From Actinacidiphila oryziradicis (GTDB taxonomy: Bacteria > Actinomycetota > Actinomycetes > Streptomycetales > Streptomycetaceae): 64,000 bases of DNA. Position numbers and translations under genes: made by a program. Positions 60,770-63,833 of this stretch are shown piece by piece (the first letter of the stretch is position 1; each line of letters opens with the position of its first letter). The DNA is taken from contig NZ_SUMC01000002.1 of the NCBI RefSeq assembly GCF_005047355.1, positions 62,001 to 126,000 of the forward strand, written 5' to 3'. The notes under the pieces are model-generated. The model was given only the letters and a program-made list of their open reading frames with translations. It was not told the DNA's origin and did not search any database.

Positions 60770-60976
60770 TCAGCCCTTTGCCGCGTACGAGACGAACTCG
60801 GCCCACGCCTGCGATGTGAACGCGAACTGCGGACCCTGGGGGTCCTTGGAGTCGCGGACGTGGACGGCGCCGGGGGCGGTTGCGATCTCGACGCAGGAAG
60901 GACCGTCGTCGGTGCTGTAACTGCTCTTGAACCACTCCAGCGCGGAACCGGCTCTGGCAGAGGGCTTGAGGGTCAT
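60770..60976 (-). CDS. DUF397 domain protein
   Basis: 68 residues: WFKSSYSTDDGPSCVEIATA, VHVRDSKDPQGPQFAFTSQA, WAEFVSYA, the complete DUF397 motif. These small proteins are usually encoded with an Scr1-type helix-turn-helix regulator and an RsbW-like ATPase. BldB and the WhiJ partners belong here and affect development. Its start overlaps the regulator stop by 4 nt. Confidence 0.93.
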   Translation of the reverse strand: MTLKPSARAGSALEWFKSSYSTDDGPSCVEIATAPGAVHVRDSKDPQGPQFAFTSQAWAEFVSYAAKG

Positions 60977-61839
60977 GTCTCTCCCAGCACTTTCTGGATG
61001 ACGGCCAGCGATTCACGCGGCGTATGAGCCTGCGCCCGGATCATGCCATACCGCATCTCAAGGATCTGGACCTCCCGGGGATCGGCGATCAGGCGACTGG
61101 TGAGCTGCACTTCATTCAGCCCGACCGCTGTGCCGTCCTTGAGTTTCAGGACGCGCAACGAGCCGCCGAGCCCGGAGTGCTCCTCGACCGCCGTGGGCAT
61201 CACCTGGATCTCGACGTACCGCAACTGGCTGGCCTCCAGCAGGTGTTCGAGTTGGCGTCGCAACACCATTCTGCCCCCGATCGGCCGCCGGAGCGTCGCC
61301 TCTTCCTGGACGAAGGTCAGCAGTGGGGCGGGCCGCCGCTCGTAGATCTCCTGGCGAGCCATGCGAGCAGCCACCAGCCGCTCAAGTTCGTCCTCTCCGT
61401 ACGCCGGGCGCCGCAGGCCAAGGAGCGCCCGTGCGTACTCCTCCGTCTGCAAGAGGCCATCCACGACGGTGCTTGCATAGGAGCCCAGCTCTCCCGCCTC
61501 ATACTCCAGCTTCGCGACGTCCCGCACCTTCTTCGGGTACCGGGCCTCGGCCACGTCATCCTTCATCGCGGCGAGCTTGCCGCCGGCCCCCAGCACCTCG
61601 TCCGCCTTGTCCAGGAACTCCGGCTTGGGGACCCGCCGCCCCCGCTCGACGGACGAGACCATCTCCTCGCCATACCCGATGGCCGCCCCGAACTCGATCC
61701 GCCGCAGCCCCGCCGCTTCCCGCCAGAGCTTGATCTGCCGCCCGACCGCCTTCATCACGGCCCCGGAATCGTCGTCCTCCAGCCCGGCGTCCCAGTGAGA
61801 GCCGTCCGCCCCGTCCGCTCCGTCTGCCGTGTAGTCCAT
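60973..61839 (-). CDS. Helix-turn-helix regulator with DUF5753 (Scr1/WhiJ type)
   Basis: 288 residues from MDYTADGADGADG. The N-terminal XRE helix-turn-helix reads QIKLWREAAGLRRIEFGAAI with GYGEEMVSSVERGRRVPKPE. The DUF5753 effector domain follows (YEAGELGSYASTVVDGLLQT, EEYARALL, ...RRQLEHLLEASQLRYVEIQV). It probably forms a regulatory pair with the DUF397 protein, possibly antagonist and regulator as in whiJ loci. GGGGGCGG lies directly before this ATG; in-frame ATGs at 61854 and 61887 are possible starts. Confidence 0.9.
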   Translation of the reverse strand: MDYTADGADGADGSHWDAGLEDDDSGAVMKAVGRQIKLWREAAGLRRIEFGAAIGYGEEMVSSVERGRRVPKPEFLDKADEVLGAGGKLAAMKDDVAEARYPKKVRDVAKLEYEAGELGSYASTVVDGLLQTEEYARALLGLRRPAYGEDELERLVAARMARQEIYERRPAPLLTFVQEEATLRRPIGGRMVLRRQLEHLLEASQLRYVEIQVMPTAVEEHSGLGGSLRVLKLKDGTAVGLNEVQLTSRLIADPREVQILEMRYGMIRAQAHTPRESLAVIQKVLGET

Positions 61840-62079
61840 ACCGCCCCCGCTCATTTGGCACCCGCGTACGGCAATCACTGTCCGCACTCGGCTAGTTACC
61901 CCGAAGCGTAAACACGGCGGGGCGCGTTGATGACATTGGCCCAGAAAATCACCCGCCCCGGGCCTCGGTGGGGTTATTTCGGCATGGGTGGCGTGCGGGA
62001 GCGCTGGCTCCCTTCGGTCGCGAAGAAAAAGGCGCTCCTACGGGAAGGGGGAGGGGCGCTGCCGCTTGTCACCGGGCCG

Positions 62080-62250
62080 CCGGGCCGGTGGGTTGCGGAG
62101 GTCAAGGCGGCTTGTGCGGCATCGGTTCGGTGGGTGTCTGGGGTCTCGTTGCCGGATCCTGGTAGAGATGGTCGGTGGCGACGCCTGTTGTCCGTGGGGG
62201 GTTGCGCTGCCGTAACCGGCGGCTGTCGGGTGCTTGGTGGCTTGGCCCCG
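62080..62250. repeat. Left arm of a 171-bp perfect inverted repeat
   Basis: Identical to the reverse complement of 62996-63166 over all 171 bp. Weaker similarity extends outward on both sides (the GCTCCCTT-GGTCGC block at about 62006 and 63229) and inward through GGCGGCTT-like sequence and AACGTT motifs. No gene is visible from 61840 to 63413. Confidence 0.9.
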
Positions 62251-62332
62251 TTGTCGACGGGGCGGGCGGGGGCCCGGCGGCTTCCCTCTCGGCCGGTGGG
62301 CGGATGGGCGGGGGCCCGGGCCCGGCGGGGGC

Positions 62333-62423
62333 GCAGAAACGTTCCGGCGGGGGGCGAGTGGTTGCTCTCCCGACCAGTGGGCGGCCGGCGTTCATGCGGG
62401 GGGATGCAGAAACGTTCCGGCGG
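62333..62423. repeat. Two direct copies of an AACGTT-centred motif
   Basis: GCAGAAACGTTCCGGCGG at 62333-62350 and 62406-62423. An inverted copy lies at 62907-62924 and a degenerate inverted copy (GGCAAAAACGTTCCTGCC) at 62861-62878. A variant with ACGATT is at about 62750-62770. They lie inside the inverted-repeat region and could be protein-binding sites. Confidence 0.7.
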
Positions 62424-62614
62424 AGCGCCATACCGGGTTCACCACCCCCGGGGCAGCATTTACCCCACTTTGGGCATACCTTTTGGGCCCATCTGGATTG
62501 TCAGTGCTGAAAGTGAAGAGATATGCCCGAATTGCCAATTTCTGGACTTCACTAACTGCACTCAAATCCGTCCCAGGGGTCGCCGGTGGCCCGCCAGCGA
62601 CCCCACAGCCCGCC

Positions 62615-62699
62615 CGCCTGCGTGCACTACAGCCCATGCCTGCGTACACCCCGGCGTGGCGGGGGTGTACGCAGGCATGGGCTGTAGTGCACGCAGGCG
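62615..62699. repeat. Hairpin with perfect 38-bp stem
   Basis: Arms 62615-62652 and 62662-62699 pair without mismatch around a 9-nt loop (GGCGTGGCG). The arms contain GTGCACTACAGCCCATGCC. The hairpin is centred at about 62657, close to the midpoint (62623) of the large inverted repeat. It is far longer than terminators in this window. It could be a structured RNA, a recombination or replication site, or a folded mobile element. Confidence 0.85.
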
Positions 62700-62995
62700 C
62701 GAGAGGAATTGACCGATATGCCGGATGCGGGGAAGCCTCCTCGCTCCCGCTGAAACGATTCTGCGGCGGAGCGGATCCATGAGGTGCCCCGATGAGACAG
62801 CGACACTACGAGCGGGGCCCGTGAGAGTGTCCCATTCGGGCACCTAATGTCCCGATCCCCGGCAAAAACGTTCCTGCCCCGAACCCGGAGGAGAGCCACC
62901 CGCCCTCCGCCGGAACGTTTCTGCACCCCCGCGCCTGGACCCCCACCCACCGGCCGGGAGGGCAGCCACCGGGCCCCCGCTCACTTCCCCCGCCC

Positions 62996-63166
62996 CGGGG
63001 CCAAGCCACCAAGCACCCGACAGCCGCCGGTTACGGCAGCGCAACCCCCCACGGACAACAGGCGTCGCCACCGACCATCTCTACCAGGATCCGGCAACGA
63101 GACCCCAGACACCCACCGAACCGATGCCGCACAAGCCGCCTTGACCTCCGCAACCCACCGGCCCGG
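62996..63166. repeat. Right arm of the 171-bp perfect inverted repeat
   Basis: Exact reverse complement of 62080-62250. Together the arms enclose 745 bp, so homologous recombination between them would invert 62251-62995. Confidence 0.9.
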
Positions 63167-63413
63167 GAGCCAACCGACGAGACGAGCCCCCCTCCTCCCC
63201 CTCCGCAGTTGCGTCTTTGATCTTTGCGACCAAAGGGAGCAAAACGCACCCGCACCCGGCCAATCAGAAATGGCGAGACCGGCAACCCCGACCACCCCAA
63301 CCACCCCAACCACGGCGTACCGGCCGGACAGGTCCAGGCCACGGACGGACAGTCACGCTCCGTACAAGCCCCACGCCTATCCAGTTGTCACACGCCCGAT
63401 CACGCTAAGTCGC

Positions 63414-63833
63414 GTGAACCAGGAAATCACCAGCCCCGAAACAGCCCCCGCCACCCGCCAGTTCCATGTCCAGCTCTCCGCCACCCGCAGGGGCGCCCGG
63501 CTTGCCCGGCTGCTCGCGACCGAGCAGCTGCGCAGCTGGGGGCTGTCGATCGAGGCGGCGGCACACGTTGTCGCTGAGCTGGCCGCGAACGCGGCGCTCC
63601 ATGGCCGCGTACCGGGCCGCGACTTCCGGCTGACGCTCACCGTCACGAACGCCGGCACACTCCGCATCGAGGTGACGGACGCCCGCGCGGAGCGCCTTCC
63701 GTCTGTCCACCGCGAGGCGCTCCCGGAGGACGAGTCGGGGCGCGGCCTCATGCTCGTGGACGCGCTGGCCGACCGCTGGGGTGTCGCGCCGGGCCCGGCG
63801 CCCTGCAAGACGGTGTGGGCCGAGCTGGGCTGA
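63414..63833 (+). CDS. RsbW-like ATP-binding protein (HATPase_c)
   Basis: 139 residues of a GHKL ATPase domain like anti-sigma kinases. The N-box is VVAELAANAALHG (Glu and Asn of E-x3-N). The G1 box reads IEVTDARAERLP and the G2 box ESGRGLMLVDALADRWG. No sensor or sigma gene is adjacent. The GTG at 63414 starts VNQEITSPETAPATRQ; the open frame upstream is inverted-repeat DNA. It faces away from the DUF397 and helix-turn-helix pair, and the three probably form one regulatory set, as is common in Streptomyces. Confidence 0.88.
   Translation: MNQEITSPETAPATRQFHVQLSATRRGARLARLLATEQLRSWGLSIEAAAHVVAELAANAALHGRVPGRDFRLTLTVTNAGTLRIEVTDARAERLPSVHREALPEDESGRGLMLVDALADRWGVAPGPAPCKTVWAELG

Follow-up and report, generated by a model that had tools for sequence, protein, structure and literature searches.

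In bacteria, a long palindrome is as a rule unstable. Eukaryotic foldback transposons carry inverted repeats of great length around middle parts that vary, and the element described below is like them in both respects, the likeness considered here being one of architecture.

MITEs are non-coding, multi-copy and intergenic, with terminal inverted repeats and a lineage-specific presence (PMC10969869), and the element resembles them in all of these traits. Unlike MITEs, it has arms of ~ 290 bp that make most of it palindrome, no target duplication was recognised at its ends, and no related autonomous insertion sequence was identified for it. Streptomyces is not mentioned in the text of that review. 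REP/BIME sequences and the GTAG- or CGTC-tagged palindromes are likewise dispersed, extragenic and close to stop codons, mostly of convergent or co-directional genes (PMC3733652). REPs, however, are 20–40 bp long, whereas the elements studied here are 85-nt hairpins inside palindromes of 0.6–1.3 kb; the REP/BIME pattern, a palindrome of 20–40 nt with a GTAG or CGTC tag, does not describe the hairpin, in which no such tag was present. The text of the survey mentions neither Streptomyces nor Actinobacteria.

In a study on Streptomyces clavuligerus, bidirectional transcript ends and long stems are described at 10 of 24 XRE-DUF397 gene pairs, and Streptomyces transcript ends are said often to lack a U-tract (PMC8269248). 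The long stems and short loops beside XRE-DUF397 pairs are like those found here. The S. clavuligerus sites, however, are mapped RNA ends that the available part of the study does not describe as a dispersed repeat family, and the copy in our window, unlike those sites, is on the promoter side of an XRE gene. No description of the present palindrome family was found in the literature searched.

The hairpin and the palindrome around it

The window, that is, the whole stretch of 64,000 nucleotides of Actinacidiphila oryziradicis DNA that was analysed, belongs to a chromosome contig and contains an uninterrupted hairpin at 62615–62699. The perfect 38-bp stem and 9-nt loop claimed for it in an earlier note were confirmed, with positions 62615–62652 (5′ arm, plus strand) pairing with 62662–62699 (3′ arm, plus strand) without a single interruption; both arms were located by folding and by family alignment. 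Folded as RNA, the hairpin reaches −96.1 kcal/mol, with z = −13.8 relative to dinucleotide shuffles. The next longest of the perfect stems in the 64-kb window measures 19 bp, and in eight order-2 Markov surrogates of the window no perfect stem exceeded 14 bp. The adjoining flank at 62700–62830 (plus strand; GAGAGGAATTG..CCGATATG..GCTGAAACGATTCTGCGGCGGAGCGGATCC) is conserved among copies.

In an alignment of ten hairpin copies, 10 of the 38 pairs were changed on both sides, with 24 double-change cells observed against 10.5 ± 2.4 in shuffles, and 87% of the cells were paired, against 23–51% when the partners were slid. The hairpin palindrome is conserved among the copies while the sequence of its stem varies. 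This covariation alone does not prove that the RNA has a function, since the same pattern results when one arm of a palindrome is corrected from its partner. The stability of the fold and the base-pair covariation are nevertheless what would be expected if the hairpin gave rise to a regulatory small RNA, or to a long double-stranded RNA, acting in trans. We regard this as very improbable: a scan for sigma-70-type promoters found none (other Streptomyces promoters fall outside that scan), and an Rfam scan returned nothing above gathering score, the matches being miRNA precursors only, far below that score, which may be what any long hairpin gives. In addition, the hairpin was found in one species only and its two strands read almost alike, as they should in a palindrome at the DNA level.

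Nor does the hairpin look like an intrinsic terminator, in which a short GC-rich stem is followed by a U-tract; no T-run follows the 38-bp stem, and the hairpin was not picked up in a terminator scan.

The hairpin is the tip of a palindrome within a palindrome, in which conserved arms of ~ 290 bp enclose variable inner palindromes. This whole element, termed E1, is a nested palindrome of ~ 1.3 kb at 61966–63282 (no strand assigned), between an XRE gene and an ATPase gene, and was delimited by a nine-copy alignment and by congener sites. Its ends read ..CCTCGGTGGGG / ..GAGACCGG, their positions being approximate. The left long arm (293 nt, 62028–62320, plus strand) is 85% complementary to the right long arm (62926–63218, minus strand); both are dispersed in the genome and conserved in a congener, G013. 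Within them lies the exact 171-bp inverted repeat that the earlier note had reported, with its left half at 62080–62250 (plus strand) and its right half at 62996–63166 (minus strand), free of mismatches. The nearly central position of the hairpin was likewise borne out, its centre at ~ 62657 being offset by ~ 35 bp from the arm midpoint at ~ 62623. There is no gene or conserved frame inside the element, since the arms differ by indels of 1 nt and longer. A single arm was also considered as a structured RNA and rejected, covariation supporting just 1 of 19 pairs.

The inner part of E1 is flanked by GCAGAAACGTTCCGGCGG repeats with a near-palindromic core, AAACGTTC. On the plus strand, copy 1 (62333–62350) has its inverted partner at 62907–62924 and copy 2 (62405–62425) at 62905–62925, the inverted copy itself (62905–62925) being on the minus strand. 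Three GCAGAAACGTTCCGGCGG copies at 50-bp spacing are present on contig C235 (L025:645–767). They might serve as sites for a regulator or simply belong to the element.

The two arms of E1 match over 171 consecutive columns, while 53 mismatches are crowded into the remaining ~ 130 columns (~ 40%). With the 53 mismatches distributed evenly over all 304 columns, a clean run of 171 would, by our own arithmetic, have a probability near 1e-14. Judged by its sequence, the tract is the trace left when one arm was recently copied onto the other, and the perfect 38-bp stem likely arose by the same arm-copying. On this reading, copying from arm to arm, through gene conversion or template switching in a quasi-palindrome, preserves the match of the two halves. 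The earlier note had held such a palindrome to be unstable unless maintained; its perfection need not mean maintenance by selection, because E1 itself carries this sharp arm-to-arm correction tract. The arms of the E3 copy are 98% identical. Homogenisation of arms as a general rule was rejected, the own partner being the nearest relative only for the E3 arms and one E2 arm, and for 0 of 36 arms in G013.

Copies in the genome and the insertion site

The A. oryziradicis genome is a draft of 11.5 Mb in 389 contigs with a contamination estimate of 6.25%. The earlier note had proposed a genome-wide search for the stem, and a 106-bp query containing the hairpin located ~ 11 places, mostly matched on both strands, as palindromes do. 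Long arms were found at ~ 9 loci. Nine aligned elements share one plan of arms, inner part and arms, and the hairpin is present in eight of the nine. At two further places, on contigs C246 and C335, the hairpin is armless and lies immediately past a stop codon. With about ten relatives scattered through the genome, the hairpin seems to belong to an undescribed, protein-less mobile repeat and not to be a one-off terminator. In the 7–12-kb neighbourhoods of the elements, no transposase was noticed in the ORF listing.

A second inner palindrome (GACGGGGGCCTTATGACCACTTTGAATCGATTCAAGTGGTCATAAGGCCCCCGTC) substitutes for part of the inner sequence at L019, L020 and L022 (C112:242.9k, C98:7.9k and C1:328.5k). 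Since it replaces the inner sequence in some copies, the centres of the elements have apparently been exchanged between copies.

At 8 of the 12 places in the genome, an XRE, DUF397 or HATPase_c_2 gene lies within ~ 2.5 kb; the copies near such clusters are E1–E6, E8 and E11 (L066–L076). The chance expectation is ~ 3–5%, a rough estimate from 44 reported XRE matches and 75 candidates, and on this rough cluster count the association looks strong. In addition, ~ 200 bp of flanking DNA, with the end of an ATPase gene in it, is common to E5 and E6, which points to duplication through recombination at least for these two. One interpretation of these data, together with the mosaic make-up of the copies, is that the family as a whole was spread by recombination or duplication of gene-end regions, mainly of XRE-DUF397-ATPase paralogue clusters, and not by transposition. 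We consider this unlikely, as most copies have no common flanking sequence, the ~ 0.7-kb flanks of the G013 copies contain no XRE/DUF397/HATPase_c_2 module, and the E1 site, when set against that of the congeners, looks like a discrete insertion.

E1 occupies a divergent intergenic region. To its left are, on the minus strand, an XRE-type HTH regulator with a DUF5753 domain (60973–61887), on whose promoter side the element lies, and a DUF397 protein (60770–60976); to its right, on the plus strand, is a HATPase_c_2 protein (63405–63833), all three being assigned by Pfam. To judge from the listed ORFs, the operon for ribosomal protein S10 is also left of E1. The orthologous DUF397-XRE / ATPase locus was found in six congeners, in which the gap between the aligned gene parts is ~ 280–320 bp (G012, G009, G014 and G031) or ~ 360–460 bp (G016 and G027), compared with ~ 1.6 kb in the A. 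oryziradicis genome. The copy in the window is therefore interpreted as a lineage-specific insertion of ~ 1.3 kb. In an alignment with four congeners, the left flank was recognisable as far as CACCCG..CCGGG and the right flank again from near CCGGC. No clear direct repeat marks a target-site duplication at this copy; note that many element ends read CCGGT..ACCGG, where a palindromic CCGG duplication could hide. The E2 site, downstream of geranylgeranyl reductase, was also compared as a candidate empty site; the element is absent in other species, but as their neighbouring genes differ, the comparison shows no more than this absence.

At the same intergenic site in G021 (L166), a different insert of ~ 1 kb with a helix-turn-helix-like gene lies between XRE and ATPase, which suggests that the site is insertion-prone.

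Related palindromes and their turnover in other species

Presence in related genomes, which the earlier note had put forward as a check, was found for the arms but not for the hairpin: the arms occur in congeners, whereas the hairpin sequence was found only in its own genome. As a query against 99 relatives, the hairpin gave just two short, weak matches, and a hairpin covariance model run on 297 family genomes, with 14 candidates scored per genome, found it only in A. oryziradicis. A weak match to the model in G274 was rejected as a different streptomycete palindrome; at L153 that genome has a near-perfect intergenic palindrome of 67 bp (CGCCTCAAACGCCGGCGAGGCTGG..). Plasmid and phage collections gave zero matches to the element. 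A search of GTDB contigs for the exact arm pattern gave a single match, within a Paractinoplanes coding gene, which was taken as chance.

The G013 genome contains ~ 20 loci related to E1, of which 18 are complete imperfect palindromes of 510–630 bp. One of these elements folds at −498 kcal/mol (z = −23.8). Their arms align with those in the window, with a mean column identity of 83% over a 91-nt block of 40 arms, but another hairpin occupies the centre. In every G013 element the two arms belong to two distinct types, one arm per type, and the elements have therefore spread as whole units.

The position of the G013 elements relative to genes was examined using gene calls by codon bias. The flanking genes are convergent in 10 cases, co-directional in 9 and divergent in none, and the element ends are usually 30–60 bp from a stop codon. 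At the orthologous sites of 14 of these elements in G001, which is 92% identical to G013 over a sampled 4-kb locus, the intergenic region is short or empty in five cases (L107, L108, L113, L114 and L117). A half-element is present at L111, an unrelated giant palindrome of 590 bp occupies the convergent site at L116, and most of the remaining sites hold other sequence.

These observations bear on whether the palindromes function as bidirectional terminators or insulators that selection has retained at gene ends, with their dispersal being secondary. We lean against this explanation but take it to be a serious contender. It would account for the siting of the G013 copies, for the armless hairpins of A. 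oryziradicis directly 3′ of stop codons, and for the finding that one convergent site is occupied by different giant palindromes in two sister species; the bidirectional transcript ends with long stems at S. clavuligerus XRE-DUF397 pairs (PMC8269248) point the same way. However, the genes on either side of the window copy are divergent, several of the sites that hold an element in G013 lack it in the sister species, and gene ends are also where insertions are least harmful. The missing U-tract counts against it too, although by the same study Streptomyces ends often have none.

Close inverted repeats or palindromes were also counted in sampled 400-kb stretches, of which there were 5 in G013, 3 in G001, 3 in G000 and none in G029, several belonging to two recognisable families. 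The second of these, unrelated to the first, consists of palindromes of ~ 510–590 bp with GCGCCTGCGGCGGGC arms (L239:349–938 in G001 and L253:1345–1856 in G013). In G013, half-elements of the window-related family are nested in arms of this second family (L257:6648–7684, L115 and L121). Nesting of palindromes near palindrome centres is thus recurrent, since a half-element of one family lies inside the arms of the other. In G000 (C1, L308:9305–11230), two apparent tRNA genes are inverted ~ 1.6 kb apart around a regulator-like gene, and both are flanked by matching terminator-like hairpins.

It could be that the palindrome arose by chance or in assembly, as the genome is a draft in many contigs with some estimated contamination. 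This is hardly credible, because the family recurs as many diverged copies over several contigs and as related elements in a congener, and another congener, whose chromosome is a single contig, has palindromes of this class too.

Nature of the element and its possible role

Taken together, the hairpin is probably the central module of a non-coding, dispersed, MITE-like palindromic element of ~ 1.3 kb with about ten copies in the genome. The earlier note had suggested that it may be the core of a mobile or regulatory element outside the usual families, and this stands in so far as the hairpin forms the middle of an element that is dispersed and was inserted in this lineage. The features seen in the element and also in MITEs are multiple dispersed copies, small size, a lack of coding capacity, terminal inverted repeats, and presence or absence at orthologous sites (the window copy, and the G013 copies compared with G001). 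It is filed as MITE-like rather than as a proven MITE, because there is no clear target duplication at the window copy and no linked transposase. The element is presumably moved in trans by an enzyme.

Most copies follow closely on a stop codon, and those in the congener are often placed between convergent genes. For this reason, transcribed hairpins would probably stop transcription from both sides, and the element may act as a bidirectional terminator. Such a role makes less sense for the window copy, because it lies between divergent genes.

A broader, tentative proposal, which we think rather unlikely, is that these are undescribed giant mobile palindromes of streptomycetes, in which cruciform-targeted insertion into palindrome tips would build up the nesting and which would also serve as replaceable bidirectional gene ends. 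The cases cited for insertion at tips are the 38-bp hairpin inside E1 and the G013 half-elements inside the other palindrome family.

The palindromes described here are recurrent, inserted and diverging between copies, with a visible tract of arm-to-arm correction. The system makes it testable how bacteria carry palindromes on the kilobase scale, and whether DNA palindrome correction alone can produce apparent RNA-style covariation. If the elements do end transcription, they would supply streptomycetes with bidirectional terminators that differ from strain to strain.
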